Positions 24,834-60,814 of a stretch of 64,000 nt of DNA are shown here, one piece after another. Numbering within the stretch: position 1 is the first letter of the stretch; every line of letters begins with the position of its first letter. Below the pieces are notes generated by a model. That model made no database searches, was not told where the DNA came from, and saw only the letters and a list, made by a program, of their open reading frames with translations. This DNA is from Chitinophaga vietnamensis (GTDB lineage Bacteria > Bacteroidota > Bacteroidia > Chitinophagales > Chitinophagaceae), in assembly GCF_902167635.1 (NCBI RefSeq), contig NZ_CABHMS010000008.1:186001-250000 (forward strand), read 5' to 3'. The position numbers were made by a program, and so were the translations under genes.

Positions 24834-24889
24834 TTTAGACTAACCTAAAAAATAATTAAAGTATGTTTAAAAAATATCTTCTAGCTTTG
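24834..24889 (+). promoter_or_regulatory. DtxR/IdeR-like palindrome and promoter of the TonB receptor
   Basis: TTTAGACTAACCTAAA at 24834-24849 is an inverted repeat (TTTAG...CTAAA) resembling the TTAGGnTAnnCTAA pattern of DtxR/IdeR/MntR-type regulators. It starts directly after the COG0523 stop codon. TAGCTTTG at 24882-24889 is a -7 match. This differs from the TTTGCAACA palindrome upstream, so the receptor may respond to iron or manganese rather than zinc. Confidence 0.45.
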
Positions 24890-24965
24890 TAAAAATATTA
24901 TTCCGAGAACCCATTGTTACTATCCTGAAAACCTGACCCTGTCAACTGTTTTTTAAATAATGCTA

Positions 24966-27416
24966 ATGAAGAAGATTTTTACATCGCTACTATTGTTGTA
25001 TTGCATTTCGGCAAGCGCACAACAGCTGGTGATCAAGGGTAAAATACTGAGCCATGGCAAGCCCCTGGCCTTTGCCAACGTGGCCATCCCCGCCCTGCAT
25101 GCCGGCGCCATCACTGATGAAAAAGGCACTTTCCAGATACAACACATTACCCCCGGCAACTATGAGATCCGGGTATCCATGCTGGGATACCAAACACAGA
25201 TCATTTATAAAAACATGACGGCGGGCACTGTGATCTTACCGGACATCTACCTGGAAGAAGACCAGTCGAAGCTCGAAGAGATTGTAGTAACGGGCGTTTC
25301 GCGCGCTACGGCGGTTCGCAAAAATCCGGTTCCCATTGCCGTGATCGGCAAACGGGAAATGAATATGAATGTCAACAATAACCTGATCGATGCCATCACC
25401 AAAGGAGTGCCCGGCGTGAGTGCCGTTACCACAGGGCCTAATATCTCCAAACCCTTTATCCGCGGACTTGGCTACAACCGCGTGCTCACCCTCTTCGACG
25501 GCGTAAGGCAGGAAGGGCAGCAATGGGGAGATGAACACGGTATAGAGATAGACCAGTATGGCGTAGGCCGCGCGGAAGTGGTGAAAGGCCCTGCCAGTCT
25601 TACTTACGGCTCCGATGCTCTTGCCGGCGTGATCAATATGATACCGGATATTCCCAATGTAGCTTCAGGCGCCTTGAAAGGCAGCTTCCTCGCCGATTAT
25701 CACACCAACAATGGAATGATCGGATCATCGCTGGGCCTGGCCTGGCGTACGGGCGACTGGAAATACGCGGCCAGAGGCACTTACAAGGCGGCGCATAATT
25801 ATCAGAACAGTGTGGATGGTTATGTATATGGCACCGCTTTCAGGGAGTATAATCTGTCGGCCCTCGCGAGGGTCGATAAATCCTGGGGCCATTCGCAATG
25901 GGGCGCTACTTTGTATGACAACATGCAGGAAATCCCCGACGGCAGCCGCGATTCGCTCACGCGCAAATTTACGCGGCAGGTAAAAGAATCCGGCGCCGAT
26001 GATATCCGCAACCGCCCCATTGTGCCGGATGATGAATTGCATACCTATCGTATCAACCCGCTGCATCAGCGCATACAACATTACCGTGTGTACAATCACA
26101 CGCAATACGACAACCTTTCGTTTACGCTGGGCGCACAGCAGAGCATCCGCCGGGAGTATAACCATCCCGAAGTACCCGTGCAGCCTGGCTTGTACGTGGT
26201 GCTCAATACCTTCAACTACGATGTGCGCTATAATCTTCCTACGGTGTCGGGCATTGAAACAACGGTGGGCGTAAATGGAATGTATCAATCCAACAAAAGT
26301 AAAAACGCTACTGATTTCCCTATTCCGGATTATCATCTCTTCGATATCGGTGGATTCTTTTTTGCAAAGAAAACCTTTGGAAAGGTAGATCTGTCGGGAG
26401 GTTTGCGTTATGACCACCGCTATATCAACTGGAAAGATTTTTATGTGGGAGAGAACAAGCAGCATGGTTTTGACCAACATGTGCAACTCCCTGATACAGC
26501 GGGCGCGCGCTTGCAGTTCCCGGCTTTCCGGCATACTTATACCGGTATCTCCGGTAGTTTGGGCGCCACCTGGAACATTACAGAGCGTGTATTGCTGAAA
26601 GCAAATATTGCGAGAGGCTACCGCGCGCCGAACATCACGGAGATCGGCTCCAATGGCCTTGATCCCGGTGCGCATATTGTATATCTTGGCAACCGTAACT
26701 TCAAGCCGGAGTTCAGCTTGCAGGAAGATATAGGCTTGCTCGCTTACCTGCCCGATCTGGACCTGAGTGTAGAGGTCTTTAATAATAACATCGACAACTA
26801 CATCTACCAGGCACGCCTATACGATAATAATGGTGATCCGGTGGTGATCGTACCGGGCAATACTACTTACAGCTACCAGCAATCACGGGCGCGGCTTTAT
26901 GGTGCGGAAGTGAGTGTGAACCTGCATCCGCGGGTGCTGAAGTGGCTTAGCTGGAATAACAGTGCCGCCTATACGGAGGGGCTGAACCGCAATGATGCAT
27001 TGATAAAGAAAAACGGCGATGCCGCGCGTTACCTGCCTTTCATACCGCCATTCCATTTCCGCTCCGAGCTGCGGGCTACCGCCAGTGGCAGCTATGGCAT
27101 CTTTTCACATGCTTATGGCCGTGTAGAGCTGGATGCTTTTGCAGCACAGTCGCATTTCTACGGTGTGGACCGTACAGAAACCTACACCCCCGGTTACACG
27201 TTGATCAATGTGGGAGCGGGTTCCGGCATTATTAACAGGAAAGGGAAAAATCTCTTTGATATCTTCTTACAACTGGATAATGTGTTCGACGTGGCTTACC
27301 AGGCCAATATGAACAGGCTGAAATATTTCGAATATTACAGCGCCTCTCCCAACGGCCGTTCCGGCATTTACAATATGGGGCGCAATTTCAGTGTGAAGGT
27401 GATCGTGCCTTTTTAG
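24966..27416 (+). CDS. TonB-dependent receptor (metal-type)
   Basis: An outer-membrane active transporter of 816 residues. Order: signal peptide (MKKIFTSLLLLY...SASAQ), carboxypeptidase regulatory-like domain at about 20-100 ('HGKPLAFANVAIP', 'ITPGNYEIRVSMLGYQ'), plug domain at about 110-230 ('GVPGVSAVTTGPNISKPFIR', 'ADVVKGPASLTYG'-like segment reading AEVVKGPASLTYGSDAL), and a 22-strand barrel ending in Phe. 'RAPNITEIGSNGLDPG' followed by 'GNRNFKPE' is reminiscent of ZnuD-type and related metal receptors; the substrate is inferred. It is separated by 132 bp from the COG0523 gene and has its own promoter and palindrome. Its last four bases overlap the convergent gene. Confidence 0.92.
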   Translation: MKKIFTSLLLLYCISASAQQLVIKGKILSHGKPLAFANVAIPALHAGAITDEKGTFQIQHITPGNYEIRVSMLGYQTQIIYKNMTAGTVILPDIYLEEDQSKLEEIVVTGVSRATAVRKNPVPIAVIGKREMNMNVNNNLIDAITKGVPGVSAVTTGPNISKPFIRGLGYNRVLTLFDGVRQEGQQWGDEHGIEIDQYGVGRAEVVKGPASLTYGSDALAGVINMIPDIPNVASGALKGSFLADYHTNNGMIGSSLGLAWRTGDWKYAARGTYKAAHNYQNSVDGYVYGTAFREYNLSALARVDKSWGHSQWGATLYDNMQEIPDGSRDSLTRKFTRQVKESGADDIRNRPIVPDDELHTYRINPLHQRIQHYRVYNHTQYDNLSFTLGAQQSIRREYNHPEVPVQPGLYVVLNTFNYDVRYNLPTVSGIETTVGVNGMYQSNKSKNATDFPIPDYHLFDIGGFFFAKKTFGKVDLSGGLRYDHRYINWKDFYVGENKQHGFDQHVQLPDTAGARLQFPAFRHTYTGISGSLGATWNITERVLLKANIARGYRAPNITEIGSNGLDPGAHIVYLGNRNFKPEFSLQEDIGLLAYLPDLDLSVEVFNNNIDNYIYQARLYDNNGDPVVIVPGNTTYSYQQSRARLYGAEVSVNLHPRVLKWLSWNNSAAYTEGLNRNDALIKKNGDAARYLPFIPPFHFRSELRATASGSYGIFSHAYGRVELDAFAAQSHFYGVDRTETYTPGYTLINVGAGSGIINRKGKNLFDIFLQLDNVFDVAYQANMNRLKYFEYYSASPNGRSGIYNMGRNFSVKVIVPF

Positions 27417-55873: not shown

Positions 55874-56212
55874 ATGGAATCAATCAACTGGCAAGACTTT
55901 GAAAAAGTAGAAATGAGAGTGGGCACTATCCTCGAAGCAAATGATTTTCCCAAGGCCCGTAACCCGGCATACCAACTCATGATCGATTTCGGTGAAGAAA
56001 CAGGTATTCGCCGTTCCTCTGCACAAATTACAAAATTATATAATAAAGAGGAGCTCATTGGTAAGCAAGTAATCGCCGTTGTCAATTTCCCGGTAAAGCA
56101 AATTGCCAATTTTATGTCCGAATGTTTGGTACTTGGAGTGGTTGGTAACGATAAGGAAATTGTATTGCTCACCCCCGATAAAAAGGTGGAAAATGGCTTC
56201 CGAATAGGCTAA
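55874..56212 (+). CDS. csaA: CsaA tRNA-binding domain protein
   Basis: A 112-residue EMAP-II/OB-fold protein, normal length for CsaA, which binds tRNA and has export-chaperone-like activity in Bacillus. 'WQDFEKVEMRVGTILEANDF', 'RRSSAQITKLYNKEELIGKQ' and 'IANFMSECLVLGV' are the family motifs. It is monocistronic between an upstream terminator and a long non-coding region with two small RNA-like units. Confidence 0.94.
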   Translation: MESINWQDFEKVEMRVGTILEANDFPKARNPAYQLMIDFGEETGIRRSSAQITKLYNKEELIGKQVIAVVNFPVKQIANFMSECLVLGVVGNDKEIVLLTPDKKVENGFRIG

Positions 56213-56387: not shown

Positions 56388-56485
56388 TTGAAACCTGGTT
56401 CGGGACTATATCTTTGTATCAGGTTTTTCATAGGATATGGTTAAAATTATTACAAGGGCGGTATTCTTACCACCCTTTTTTATTT
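56388..56485 (+). ncRNA. Candidate small RNA / micro-ORF unit, copy A
   Basis: A complete short transcription unit in a 650-bp gene-free region. TTG at 56388-56390, an 18-nt spacer and TATCTTTG (56409-56416) form the promoter. The leader contains GGTTTTTCATAGGATATGGT, after which come AAAATT and a stem GGGCGGTA / TACCACCC (56456-56463 and 56468-56475, one mismatch) with loop TTCT, then TTTTTTATTT. The transcript would be about 60 nt. An ATG at 56437 opens a frame (MVKIITRAVFLPPF...) that runs through the hairpin to a stop at 56521-56523. Two relatives follow at 56.7 and 59.2 kb. Confidence 0.6.
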
Positions 56486-56690
56486 CTCTCCTTTTCAGCG
56501 TTCCTGCGGGCCTTTTTCAGTAACTTTTTGTATACTCTCTTAATAATCAATAAATTAGTATTGAAAATCAAATATTTGTATTATTATAAAGTATTTTTCA
56601 ACTCCATGCGTTTAACGTCAGTTTCCGTACGTTAACCGAGAAAAATACACCATTCACAAAAATGAATGCGCACATAATCAAAAAAAGGAT

Positions 56691-56768
56691 CACCTTTGGT
56701 GTAGGTTTTTCAATAAAGATATGGTTAAAATTTTTCGGGGCTGTAGTCTTGCAGCCCCGTTTCTTTTT
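56691..56768 (+). ncRNA. Candidate small RNA / micro-ORF unit, copy B
   Basis: It has the same layout as copy A. CACCTTTG (56691-56698) is the -7-like box, then GGTTTTTCAATAAAGATATG with the ATG at 56721, GGTTAAAATTTTTC, a 9-bp stem GGGGCTGTA / TGCAGCCCC with loop GTCT (56737-56758), and GTTTCTTTTTT. The frame from the ATG ([14 protein letters not shown]...) continues 60 codons to 56903, overlapping the convergent peptidase gene, so it is not clearly a protein gene. No plus-strand gene lies downstream for it to regulate. Confidence 0.6.
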
Positions 56769-56812
56769 TATAGACCTTTCCATTCGCATCGTTGTAAACT
56801 AATAATAAATAA

Positions 56813-56846
56813 AAAAGCCCCCGCGCTATTAGCGTGGGGGCTTTTC
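56813..56846. terminator. Strong hairpin downstream of the dipeptidyl peptidase gene
   Basis: AAAAGCCCCCGCGCTA pairs with TAGCGTGGGGGCTTTT through one G-T wobble with almost no loop. T-runs lie on both sides. It follows the minus-strand peptidase gene and also closes any plus-strand read-through from copy B. Confidence 0.8.
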
Positions 56847-56861
56847 TTTTGGGCTGCCTGC

Positions 56862-59000
56862 TTATTTTTCGCTGAAGGCTGCCGGGAAAGATTTATTCAA
56901 TAAGTTATTATAGATAAAACGATAGGCTTCGCTGGAAGAGTGCTGCGCCTTGATGCCGCGCCATCCGTGGCGTTCGCCGGGATAGAGCATGAACTCGAAA
57001 TGTTTATTCAGGTTCTCCAGCTTGTCGATCAGCTGAATACAGTTCTGCATGTGCACATTATCATCCATGGTGCCATGGGTAATACGGAGCAGGCCCCTGT
57101 ATCTGTCGGCATAGGTCATCACGGCCGTTTGTTTGTAACCTTCCGGATTTTCGGCCGGGGTATCCATGTAGCGCTCCGTGTAGTGGCTATCATAGAGCTG
57201 CCAGTCGGTAACGGCGAAATTAGCCATGCCATAATTGAATACCGATGCGCCATAAGTAAGCGCCATGCAGGTCATATAACCGCCGAAACTGCCGCCGGTG
57301 ATACATATCCTGGATGTATCAACCCAGGCCTGGGAACGCAGCCAGGAAGCGGCATCCATATAATCTTCAATTTCATGGATACCCAGCTTGCGGTGGATAT
57401 AGTTCATCCCCATCTTGCCCAGCTGGCCGCTGCTGCGATTGTCGATCACCACCTGTATCACGCCTTCCTGCGCCCACCACTGTTGGGTGAGAGAAGGCTT
57501 CCAGGTATCGAACACCTTGCCTGCATCCGGGCCGCCATAGATATCGATGAGCACCGGGTATTTTTTACCGGCCTCCATATGAAGCGGCATCATGATAGTC
57601 ATCGGTAACTCAAGGCCGTCGCGGGTTTTGTAATACTTCAAAGCGGCGGTGGCTACATTGTATTTATCGAAATCCGCGCCCTTGCTATCGCCCAGCTCAC
57701 GGATCATTTTACCATTATTATCTACCAGCGCCATTTTAGCCGGCGTTTGCAGGTTGGAATAGGTGTCAATAAAATATTTACCATCTGGTGAAATGCTCAC
57801 CTGGTTATCGTAATTGCCGGAAGTGAGGCGGGTGATAGCGCCCGACTGCAAACTCACTTTGTAGAGATCAAAGCGGGTAGAGGCCTCTTTACGTGCAGTG
57901 AAATAAACGATCATATTTTTCTGATCGATGTGCACTACGTCTTTTACGGTCCAGTTGCCGGAAGTCAATTGCTTTTTAAGCGAGCCGTCGGTACTGTGCC
58001 AGTAGAGGTGCGCCCAGCCGCTCTTGTCGCTTTTCAGCAGGAAGCCTTTATTATTATCGAGGAAAGGCACGGCATCGAACCAGTCGATCCAGGTTTTTTG
58101 TTTCTCATCGTAGATCTCTTTCCTGGCGCCGCTTTCCGGGTTGATGCTATATATTTTCAGGTTATCCTGGCCACGGTTCATCCATTGTATCCAAAGGCTT
58201 TTACTATCGGCGGCCCAGAAAGGCGTACCGAAATACTGGTCATCATTTTCGTTGAAATCAGCCCAGGTAGTGGCGCCGCCGCTAACCGGCACAATGCCCA
58301 GCTTCACGGCCGGATTGGGATCGCCTGCTTTGGGATAACGGGTATTTTCGAGATAGCCATGTTGCCCCTTTTCGCTGTAGATGGGGAACACCGGCACTTT
58401 GGTATCATTGAAATGCATGTAAGCAATGTGGCGGCTATCAGGGCTCCACCAGAAAGCGCGGTATTTGGAAGGGCGGCCCAATATCTCTTCATAATACACC
58501 CAGGATGCCCAACCATTGTAGATCACATCTGTGCCATCGTTGGTATAGCGGATTTCTTTGCCAGTGGCCACTTCCACGCTGTAAAGGTCATTATTGCGGG
58601 TAAAGGCTACATATTTTCCGTTGGGCGACAGGGTAGGATTTTTTTCTGTTGCGGCATCATTGGTAAGCCGTGTTTCTTTGCCATCGGGCGTTTTATAGAA
58701 TATGTCATTATCTTTTACCTGCACGCTGGGGCCATCTACCGGTGCGGTATAGATGGTGGCCTTTCCGCTGCGGGCGTCTACCGACCAGGCCTGCAGGCGG
58801 CCGGTAGCAGTATCAGGGCGCATTTCCAGGTAATGTTCTGCATCTGCCCAATCCCTGATCATAGGTAAAGGTTTGGAGATATTGAGCGGCTTACCCCTGA
58901 ATGCCTGTTCAAAAGTAATATCCTGCTTTTGTTGCGCCTGTGCGGCCGGAAGCCATAGTAACAGCAAAGAGGCGGGTTTTAACCATTGTACACTTCTCAT
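56862..59000 (-). CDS. Dipeptidyl peptidase IV family serine peptidase (S9B)
   Basis: A 712-residue exported peptidase that cleaves X-Pro dipeptides. Signal peptide 'MRSVQWLKPASLLLLW...AAQAQ', an N-terminal eight-bladed DPPIV propeller with 'YYEEILGRPSKY' (the double Glu that binds the peptide N-terminus), then the alpha/beta-hydrolase domain from about 495. The catalytic Ser is in 'GGSFGGYMT', Asp in 'HGTMDDNVH' and His in 'GERHGWRG'. The start at 59000 is chosen for the signal peptide; the ORF upstream to 59105 lacks one. It may help use peptides in the periplasm. Confidence 0.95.
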   Translation of the reverse strand: MRSVQWLKPASLLLLWLPAAQAQQKQDITFEQAFRGKPLNISKPLPMIRDWADAEHYLEMRPDTATGRLQAWSVDARSGKATIYTAPVDGPSVQVKDNDIFYKTPDGKETRLTNDAATEKNPTLSPNGKYVAFTRNNDLYSVEVATGKEIRYTNDGTDVIYNGWASWVYYEEILGRPSKYRAFWWSPDSRHIAYMHFNDTKVPVFPIYSEKGQHGYLENTRYPKAGDPNPAVKLGIVPVSGGATTWADFNENDDQYFGTPFWAADSKSLWIQWMNRGQDNLKIYSINPESGARKEIYDEKQKTWIDWFDAVPFLDNNKGFLLKSDKSGWAHLYWHSTDGSLKKQLTSGNWTVKDVVHIDQKNMIVYFTARKEASTRFDLYKVSLQSGAITRLTSGNYDNQVSISPDGKYFIDTYSNLQTPAKMALVDNNGKMIRELGDSKGADFDKYNVATAALKYYKTRDGLELPMTIMMPLHMEAGKKYPVLIDIYGGPDAGKVFDTWKPSLTQQWWAQEGVIQVVIDNRSSGQLGKMGMNYIHRKLGIHEIEDYMDAASWLRSQAWVDTSRICITGGSFGGYMTCMALTYGASVFNYGMANFAVTDWQLYDSHYTERYMDTPAENPEGYKQTAVMTYADRYRGLLRITHGTMDDNVHMQNCIQLIDKLENLNKHFEFMLYPGERHGWRGIKAQHSSSEAYRFIYNNLLNKSFPAAFSEK

Positions 59001-59183
59001 AACTTGTATTAACGGGTGATTTGTTGGTTGTTGGCGGGCGAAAATACGTATAACTGCCAAACAGCACTCGATAATTTGTATAAACGGCCCTTCTATAATC
59101 ACCATTTGTAATGTGATTGCTGCCAGTTATTCGGAATTTCCCTGCAACGAGGAAGTATAGCTGGAAATCGCAGTAGTGGCGCG

Positions 59184-59250
59184 TACTTTTATACCGGTTT
59201 TCATAGGATATGGTCAAAAAAGTAAGGGGCTGTAGTCTTGCAGCCCCTTT
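59184..59250 (+). ncRNA. Candidate small RNA / micro-ORF unit, copy C
   Basis: TACTTTTA (59184-59191) as -7-like box, then CCGGTTTTCATAGGATATGG with ATG at 59210, TCAAAAAAGTAA, and the same 9-bp stem GGGGCTGTA / TGCAGCCCC with loop GTCT (59226-59247), followed by TTTCCC. The frame [14 protein letters not shown]... is in phase with lysS, giving a spurious 32-residue extension. lysS has its own promoter after the hairpin (59254-59284), so copy C is not needed for lysS expression. Confidence 0.55.
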
Positions 59251-59253
59251 CCC

Positions 59254-59284
59254 TTGTTCCTTCTCTATTATTCAGTTATTTTTG
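59254..59284 (+). promoter_or_regulatory. Predicted lysS promoter
   Basis: TTG at 59254-59256, a 20-nt spacer and TATTTTTG at 59277-59284 match the Bacteroidota consensus fully. The lysS ATG is 21 bp further. It lies immediately behind the hairpin of copy C. Confidence 0.65.
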
Positions 59285-59305
59285 CACTCCAATTTGGATT
59301 TACAC

Positions 59306-60814
59306 ATGACACAATTATCTGAGCAAGAGATTATACGCCGGGAAAAATTGCAGGAGCTGCATAAACTGGGCATAGATCCCTACCCCGCCGCCGAATATCC
59401 GGTAAATGATACTTCCGTTAATATAAAGACCAATTACTCGGAAGCCACCAAAGAGCAATTCCAGGATGTATGCCTGGCAGGCCGTATCATGAGCGTACGC
59501 GATATGGGCAAGGCTGCATTTGTGGTGATACAGGATAATGTAGGCCGTATCCAGTTGTATATCCGTCAGGACGATATCTGCCCGGGCGAAGACAAAAGCC
59601 TGTACAGCACCGTTTTCAAGAAACTCACCGATATAGGAGATTTTATCGGGGTGAAAGGTTATGCCTTCATCACCAAAACCGGTGAAACCTCCGTACATGT
59701 GAGGGAACTGAGCATCCTCGCCAAAGCACTGCGCCCGCTGCCGGTGGTGAAATCGGTAGATGGCCAGGTGTTCGATGAAGTGACCGATCCCGAATTTAAA
59801 TACCGCCAGCGTTATGTAGACCTGGTGATCAATCCGGAGGTGAAAGAGGTGTTCGTGAAACGCACGAAGATCATGCAAACCATCCGTGATTTCTATAACA
59901 ACCTCGGATATCTTGAGGTGGAAACGCCCATCCTGCAAGCTATTCCGGGTGGCGCAGCCGCACGCCCGTTCATTACGCATCATAATGCGCTGGATATGCC
60001 GCTTTATCTGCGTATCGCCAACGAACTGTACCTCAAACGCCTGATCGTAGGCGGTTTTGAAGGAGTATACGAATTTGCAAAAGATTTCCGCAACGAAGGG
60101 ATGGACCGTACGCACAATCCGGAATTTACCGTGATGGAAATGTATGCCGCCTACAAGGATTATGAATGGATGATGAGCACTACCGAAACCCTGCTGGAAA
60201 AAGTAGCCCTTGCACTGCATGGCACTACACAGGTACAGGTGGGTGAAAAAAACATCGACTTCAAAGCGCCCTTCCGCCGTGTAACTATGTACGAAGCCAT
60301 CCAGGAGCATACCGGCATCGATATCTCTCAAATGGATGAAGCCCAGCTGCGCGATGTTTGCAAACAGCTGAACATCCCCGTTGATCCCAAGATCGGTAAA
60401 GGAAAACTGATCGATGAAATCTTTGGTGAAAAATGCGAAGGCCACTACATCCAGCCTACCTTCATCACCGATTACCCGGTGGAGATGAGCCCGCTCACCA
60501 AAAAACATCGCAGCAAACCCGGTCTGGTAGAGCGTTTTGAACTGATGGTAAATGGTAAGGAGATCGCCAACGCTTATAGTGAGCTCAACGATCCCATCGA
60601 TCAGCGCGAACGTTTTGAAGAACAGGTGAAATTGATGGAACGTGGTGATGATGAAGCCATGTATATCGATTACGACTTCCTGCGTGCACTGGAATACGGC
60701 ATGCCGCCTACTTCCGGCATCGGTATCGGCATTGATCGCCTGACCATGCTGATGACCAACCAGCCATCTATCCAGGACGTGCTGTTCTTCCCGCAAATGA
60801 AACCAGAGAAATAA
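59306..60814 (+). CDS. lysS: Lysyl-tRNA synthetase, class II
   Basis: A 502-residue enzyme that charges tRNA-Lys. An N-terminal OB-fold anticodon-binding domain (about 55-160, '[23 protein letters not shown]' at positions 59470-59538) precedes the class II core with motif 1 ('[15 protein letters not shown]'), motif 2 ('[20 protein letters not shown]') and motif 3 ('[15 protein letters not shown]'). The ATG at 59306 matches the usual N-terminus '[12 protein letters not shown]...LG'. Upstream in-frame codons belong to RNA unit copy C. Confidence 0.97.

Follow-up and report, generated by a model that had tools for sequence, protein, structure and literature searches.

A multi-copy family of predicted ~60-nt small RNAs in Chitinophaga, resembling FopS and accompanied by a conserved anti-leader element

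A stretch of 64,000 nucleotides (nt) from the 6.3-Mb genome of Chitinophaga vietnamensis (hereafter the window and the home genome) carries three short, similar units, copies A, B and C, which we interpret as genes of a small RNA (sRNA) family (Table 1). Each appears to consist of a −7 promoter box, a conserved 5' leader GGTTTTTCATAGGATATGGTTAAAA that folds weakly at best, and a covarying hairpin of the intrinsic-terminator type. An earlier note on this DNA had described box, leader and hairpin in this order, and we find all three units, so arranged, where it had placed them; however, the distance from GGTTTTTCA to GATATG, which it took to be a constant 5 bases, has this value in B alone and is 3 bases in both A and C. 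Its proposal that copy A has a different stem that still pairs holds except for one internal C-A mismatch, and the T-run that it called short in copy C is indeed weak there, but this is largely a local trait, since most visible orthologues of copy C have at least four T. Copies A and B have their leader GG 5 bases beyond the box, and the 'leader' would therefore probably form the 5' end of a transcript. The covariance model R1 scores A at 81.2, C at 70.5 and B at 63.1 bits in the window (next place, 16 bits), but because the three copies belong to its training set, the independent evidence is a pattern search of the home genome: TTTTCATAGGATATGGTNAAAA, with up to three mismatches, occurs at five places and at none with the reversed control. 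Four of the five are sRNA copies (copy B is missed by the pattern), and the fifth, L005, was rejected as a copy because no matching hairpin follows its leader. Chance is thus excluded as the source of the three repeats.

Table 1. Features of the window, and the anti-leader element of the home genome
Feature	Position	Strand	Basis or remark
Predicted sRNA gene, copy A	56422..56484	+	leader 56422-56446, terminator hairpin 56454-56477, T-run
Putative −7 promoter box of copy A, TATCTTTG	56409..56416	+	sequence
Predicted sRNA gene, copy B	56704..56769	+	leader from 56704, diverged middle CAATAAAGATATGG; hairpin 56736-56759; T-run
−7-like box of copy B, CACCTTTG	56691..56698	+	sequence
Predicted sRNA gene, copy C	59195..59252	+	leader CGGTTTTCATAGGATATGGTCAAAA from about 59195; hairpin 59225-59248; weak T-run
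−7-like box of copy C, TACTTTTA	59184..59191	+	sequence
Anti-leader element	home genome C1, L122:1455-1595 (L423-L462 in relatives)	same as variant copy	~120 nt, promoter-like box to terminator
Candidate pairing site of the C1-variant sRNA	24913..24935	+	predicted duplex of -27.7 kcal/mol, the strongest among 300 start regions
TonB-dependent receptor gene downstream of that site	24960-27416	+	follows CobW-type gene; 5' region 24882-24960
CsaA-like gene, upstream of copy A	55874..56212	+	domain match (tRNA_bind PF01588), presumably CsaA
DPP-IV/S9 peptidase gene, between copies B and C	56862..59105	-	domain match
lysS −7 box TATTTTTG, separate from copy C	59277..59284	+	sequence
lysS (class II tRNA synthetase D/K/N)	59306..60814	+	domain match; name lysS from the earlier note

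The family is larger than the three copies to which the earlier note had confined it. The home genome holds six strong R1 copies (45-84 bits; next place, 30.7 bits), and a covariance-model search, of the kind proposed in that note, found R1 matches in 79 of 79 Chitinophaga genomes, 4-19 in each (E up to 1e-5). To describe their anatomy we used a collection of 167 unique places with up to four substitutions, taken from the home-genome loci and from at least 116 stretches, nearly all Chitinophaga, that an exact 25-base scan of genome contigs for GGTTTTTCATNGGATATGGTTAAAA returned. Across its 25 bases the leader hardly varies in this collection, which is partly by construction because the copies were picked by their leader; promoter and hairpin were unselected. 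The TAnnTTTG box scores 6/6 in 121 of the unique copies, 5/6 in 41 and 4/6 in five, and in 160 of the 162 scoring 5/6 or better it ends 3-5 nt before the GG; in the C2 copy of the home genome it lies 19 bases from the GG, outside this range. The hairpin was aligned in 44 copies, namely 46 non-redundant ones plus A, B and C without L005, L022:6508, the near-duplicate L020:3268, and L002 and L003 (identical to A and C). In this alignment 98.4% of the cells are paired against 85.7% in shuffled ones, eight of nine pairs have changed on both sides, none of 500 shuffles matches this, and sliding the partner abolishes the pairing. A strict hairpin rule was failed by 32 copies, 30 of which have by eye a hairpin with mismatches or a larger loop, while L005 and L022:6508 have none and are not real copies. 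The leader alone has a mean folding energy of -0.2 kcal/mol and a mean unpaired probability of 0.56 (164 copies).

On the scale of the family Chitinophagaceae, R1 (E up to 0.001) matches 105 genomes out of 147 and 72 genera out of 100. A family-wide model, R2, matched 13 of the 14 family members in a sample of 395 genomes of the phylum and 22 genomes elsewhere, the latter at no more than 36.3 bits and, where read, with the look of loose leader-terminator matches. All 27 loci read outside Chitinophaga (the best per genome) hold TTTTCATAGGATA; before the hairpin their leader is mostly GGTTTTTCATAGGATATTGGATTTTAAAA, in a few of the Chitinophaga form and in one GAATTTTCATAGGATAAGG, and a box of 5/6 or better is present at 29 of 36 places read in other genera. 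A pattern of box plus seed, run over 296 genomes, proved too unspecific. Tandem arrays of 3-6 units occur, and five loci (L020, L082, L087, L115 and L118) have arrays of 4-6 predicted sRNA genes, each with promoter boxes and terminators, at a regular spacing of 185-320 bp. Two viral contigs, L463 and L464, also carry a leader, one in the Chitinophaga form and the other in the family form. No Rfam family reaches its gathering score over the window copies, in line with the earlier note's suggestion of a possibly unrecognised family, and among the papers that a literature search listed none concerns, by title, small-RNA families of Chitinophaga. The presence of copies throughout the genus, the narrow spacing of the box and the covarying terminator hairpin bear out that note's preference for an RNA of about 60 nt, and the copies are very probably genes of one sRNA family.

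The closest known system is FopS (RF04319). According to sections of PMC11697453, its 14 paralogues in Bacteroides thetaiotaomicron repress translation of SusC-type mRNAs by pairing near the start codon, FopS is antagonized by the RRM protein RbpB, which it also binds, and its conservation is reported in Bacteroidaceae; the same sections describe GibS, a B. thetaiotaomicron sRNA that has the seed R1 in common with FopS but differs in having a second seed, R2 (these seeds are to be distinguished from our models R1 and R2). An sRNA of Flavobacterium, Rfp18, is described in an excerpt of PMC9723704. Like FopS, the Chitinophaga family comprises multi-copy paralogues with promoter-like boxes of the Bacteroidota type and a clear hairpin, and in the home genome its leader is predicted in silico to pair at the start codon of SusC-type mRNAs. 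The core of the FopS seed, GUUUUUCAU, is present at the 5' end, with one U fewer in copy C, and RF04319 aligns with copy A at 21.5 bits with this core in register. Unlike FopS, the Chitinophaga family belongs to Chitinophagaceae rather than to the Bacteroidaceae of that source, occurs in tandem arrays, is accompanied by an anti-leader element and lacks the 3' extension R1': the core is followed by AGGAUAUGGUUAAAA, whereas the RF04319 consensus has GGUAUUAGAUUUAAGG. In most other genera read the tail is AGGAUAUUGGAUUUUAAAA, which is closer to FopS by eye.

We also examined the relationship in the reverse direction. R1 was built from Chitinophaga only and without any FopS sequence, yet in 23 of the 26 FopS loci its match, of 13-28 bits, coincides with the FopS gene, and it scores below 18 bits elsewhere in those loci; it misses the gene in L241, L257 and L267, the match in L267 being a second FopS copy. 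R2, whose alignment included two FopS-like Chitinophagaceae sequences, falls on the gene in 25 of the 26 (13-25 bits). Conversely, five of the 395 phylum genomes exceed the RF04319 threshold, the home genome and its family not among them, and RF04319 hits none of 20 Chitinophagaceae loci in a search with all families at E up to 0.1; in a single-family search two of the 20, L246 and L247, reach 36.4 and 35.1 bits, and weak RF04319 matches occur in genomes G034, G035, G237 and G511. L246 and L247, which come from G034 and G035, have leaders like GGTTTTTCATAGGATAAGGTTTAAGG and match R2, which was built with them, and weakly RF04319; they are possible intermediates to FopS. Because R2 gives as much as 30-36 bits to leader-terminator units without any relationship when many genomes are searched, common descent of the Chitinophaga family and FopS is likely but unproven, and convergence on the same type of start codon would look similar.

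Predicted pairing points to mRNA start codons as targets. We compared the duplex energy of the leader with that of shuffled leaders over 300 start regions of the home genome, those of 56 SusC-family genes and of 244 other genes, the latter drawn from 344 kb of the 6.3-Mb sequence. Start codons were assigned by means of a signal-peptide rule, so that some will be wrong. For a 40-nt segment centred 5 nt before the start codon, z was -5.3 for SusC (n=56) and -3.35 for the others (n=244) with 25 shuffles, and -4.12 and -3.2 with 40 shuffles; eleven other offsets gave -0.15 to -2.5 for SusC and -0.26 to -1.97 for the others. In this genome the predicted pairing is stronger at SusC starts than at the remaining ones (p 2.3e-6). 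In G378, a genome that bears FopS, the FopS leader served as a positive control and reached z -5.55 with p 2.5e-8 (35 of 53 SusC-family matches). In addition, AACCA, a motif picked after inspecting the starts, lies within 40 nt upstream in 16 of 56 SusC starts versus two and one of 56 in two control stretches. Among individual sites, the best for the C1 variant of the family (introduced below), at 24913..24935, is reached by none of 100 shuffled leaders, the best of which attains -24.9 kcal/mol; it is a single-genome observation that emerged among four leaders listed. Separately, the best site of copy A (-21.7 kcal/mol) is the start region CTTAACCATTTCCCTTATG of a gene with a signal-peptide-like start (L199, about 2900-2940), where 13 of 100 shuffles do as well.

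Several results weigh against a FopS-like action on SusC-type starts. The leader is not wholly open, its unpaired probability averaging 0.56 and being 0.41 in copy A, whose best single structure pairs much of it. The RF04319 score of copy A lies below the gathering score (21.5 vs 56 bits), so that by threshold the family is not a formal RF04319 member, and DapZ outscores FopS on copy A with 25.9 bits; given this and the many chance families in the sub-threshold list, the RF04319 alignment alone proves nothing. When UUUUUCAU was kept and only the tail was shuffled, 6 of 143 leaders did as well in the start segment for SusC and 2 of 143 for the others, and in a wider segment 16 of 99 for SusC and 3 of 99 in each of two groups of others. 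In a genome of another genus, G004, the SusC preference was not significant (p 0.08; 35 of 53 matches). SusC starts of Bacteroides, too, gave a signal with the Chitinophaga leader (z -3.8), which means that generic ATGAAAA accounts for part of it. Three SusC offsets away from the start (-200, +150 and +250; z -1.65 to -2.5) also had no better shuffle, indicating a mild general bias, and the home-genome tests cover 300 rule-chosen starts. Finally, CCTATGAAAAA is not enriched in the home genome, where it has 11 places and the reversed control 17, and three of the 11 lie antisense to sRNA copies; an exact long target of the leader was rejected on this ground and because four of the five pattern places are sRNA copies. 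From the tail-shuffle, G004 and Bacteroides-start tests, the predicted start-codon complementarity emerges as solid and its SusC specificity as moderate, and we consider it likely that the family acts on start codons as FopS does.

The sixth copy of the home genome, at C1:46919, differs from the others in its variant leader GGGTTTTCATAGGATAGTAAC and is accompanied by a second element. On its strand, some 300 bp downstream, lies a box, TATATTTG, followed by ATGGTTACTGTCCTATGAAAAACC, a small hairpin and a strong terminator, and the ATGGTTACTGTCCTATGAAAAACC element carries a near-perfect anti-leader; the anti-leader corresponding to the leader of other genera would be CCAATATCCTATGAAAAACC. When a 471-bp stretch was searched as DNA, all 79 Chitinophaga genomes gave matches, each covering most or all of the element. 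At 40 loci read (the home genome, 19 returned by the search and 20 chosen among the less similar), the 21-base variant leader is identical to the letter and stands about 245-753 bp before the element on the same strand. After removal of eight near-identical loci, the remaining 32 (28 distinct) were aligned, and every cell of both the small hairpin and the terminator is paired; one pair has changed on both sides, a pair count reached by 493 of 500 shuffles, and the cell count is reached by none of 500. Because the terminator stem never varies and only one pair is two-sided, covariation says little for this element. No Rfam family lies over it at E up to 1. A toxin-antitoxin reading was dropped, since the open reading frame (ORF) of 9-15 codons at its ATG is broken or shifted in frame by insertions and deletions among relatives. 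The predicted duplex of the element with a family leader is -29.9 kcal/mol for the C1 variant and -24.1 for copy A (for either leader, 0 of 300 start regions as strong), -20.3 for copy C (4 of 300) and -12.5 for copy B (46 of 300). Sponges of enterobacteria such as SroC and RbsZ are small RNAs with a site complementary to the seed of another sRNA. The anti-leader RNA would work alike, but it is encoded about 250-750 bp from the member that it would bind. Most simply, the element would serve as a sponge that takes up much of the family and has a special partner in the C1 variant, an assignment that we make tentatively. A literature search found no sponge RNA of this kind in Bacteroides, as far as titles and the beginnings of abstracts tell. 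The likeness to FopS, the start-codon complementarity and this element all go beyond the earlier note.

Other explanations of the copies can be weighed against the same data. That they are attenuators or terminator units acting in cis on neighbouring genes is suggested by copy C, which lies between the S9 peptidase gene (-) and lysS (+), a position that 9 of 166 unique copies of relatives occupy as well; another 22 are placed as copy A is, between the CsaA-like and S9 peptidase genes. Yet 98 of the 166 have none of these three genes within 700 bp, lysS has its own TATTTTTG box, no plus-strand gene follows A and B, and at five loci 4-6 units stand in an array with 185-320 bp spacing; lysS attenuation was therefore rejected, as the earlier note had anticipated, and cis action in general is very improbable. 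The same note had left room for micropeptides or non-stop translation from the ATG, which is indeed conserved in nearly all copies; in copy C it is in frame with lysS in the home genome (ORF 59210-60814). However, the length of the linker varies from 3 to 9 and, with stem starts set by an automatic rule, the distance from ATG to stem falls into the three frames 64, 63 and 40 times over 167 unique copies, 36 of which meet a stop within 8 codons (in L015, the ATG of the copy C orthologue meets one after MVKK), and the changes in the stem are compensatory. The frame is thus not kept as a coding start would demand, and we regard a peptide or non-stop ORF family as scarcely credible. As a separate feature of the locus, a strong inverted repeat with A and T runs at 56808-56850, between copy B and the S9 peptidase gene, is probably a bidirectional terminator.

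Two further explanations concern what the leader binds. A leader so nearly invariant, in copies partly selected for it, could be a binding site for a protein, either an RRM protein, of which the home genome encodes one (RRM-1) that may have a role here, or RNA polymerase in the manner of 6S RNA, and its complementarity to start codons would then be incidental. This is quite improbable, because the complementarity peaks at the start codon, the predicted folds of A, B and C contain no long 6S-type helix, and FopS, according to the same sections of PMC11697453, acts by pairing while also binding RbpB. The same invariance would also be expected if the leader had one fixed partner, so that the family and the anti-leader RNA formed a closed RNA-RNA circuit with the element as sponge or as regulated target. 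The element is the strongest predicted partner found for copy A and the C1 variant and is present throughout the genus, but copies B and C pair with it less well, the signal at start codons speaks independently for mRNA targets, and the sRNAs extend across the family, whereas the element search covered the genus; we consider a closed circuit unlikely.

Together, these observations suggest a model whereby each copy would be transcribed from its own promoter of the Bacteroidota type, starting at or near the leader GG and ending at the intrinsic terminator after about 60 nt. The nearly invariant 5' leader would be the pairing region, with UUUUUCAU pairing to start codons of the type AUGAAAAA and the leader tail UGGUU to an AACCA-type sequence upstream; through core and tail, the RNA would cover the translation start and repress SusC-type and other mRNAs in trans, as FopS does in Bacteroides. 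The number of copies, from 4 to 19 per genome and partly in tandem arrays, may set the dosage, and the conserved ~120-nt anti-leader RNA beside the variant copy would titrate much of the family. As a whole, this explanation is the one that we favour, with reasonable though not strong confidence. A Chitinophaga-wide RNA circuit, in which FopS-like repressors of outer-membrane transporter synthesis are opposed by a dedicated and conserved sponge, is a possibility that we advance with more reserve. With the alignment and covariance model as seed, genomes can be annotated for a family that falls below the thresholds of Rfam 15. If the model is true, sRNA control of SusC-type transporters would be far wider than gut Bacteroides, the FopS principle would predate the split of Bacteroidaceae and Chitinophagaceae, and one genus would possess a built-in antagonist RNA, so that a multi-copy family in Bacteroidota would have its dedicated sponge. 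The reasons why bacteria maintain numerous paralogous sRNA copies are discussed in PMC11697453; Chitinophaga, with its 4-19 copies per genome, its tandem arrays and a single conserved anti-leader element, would make dosage and titration testable.

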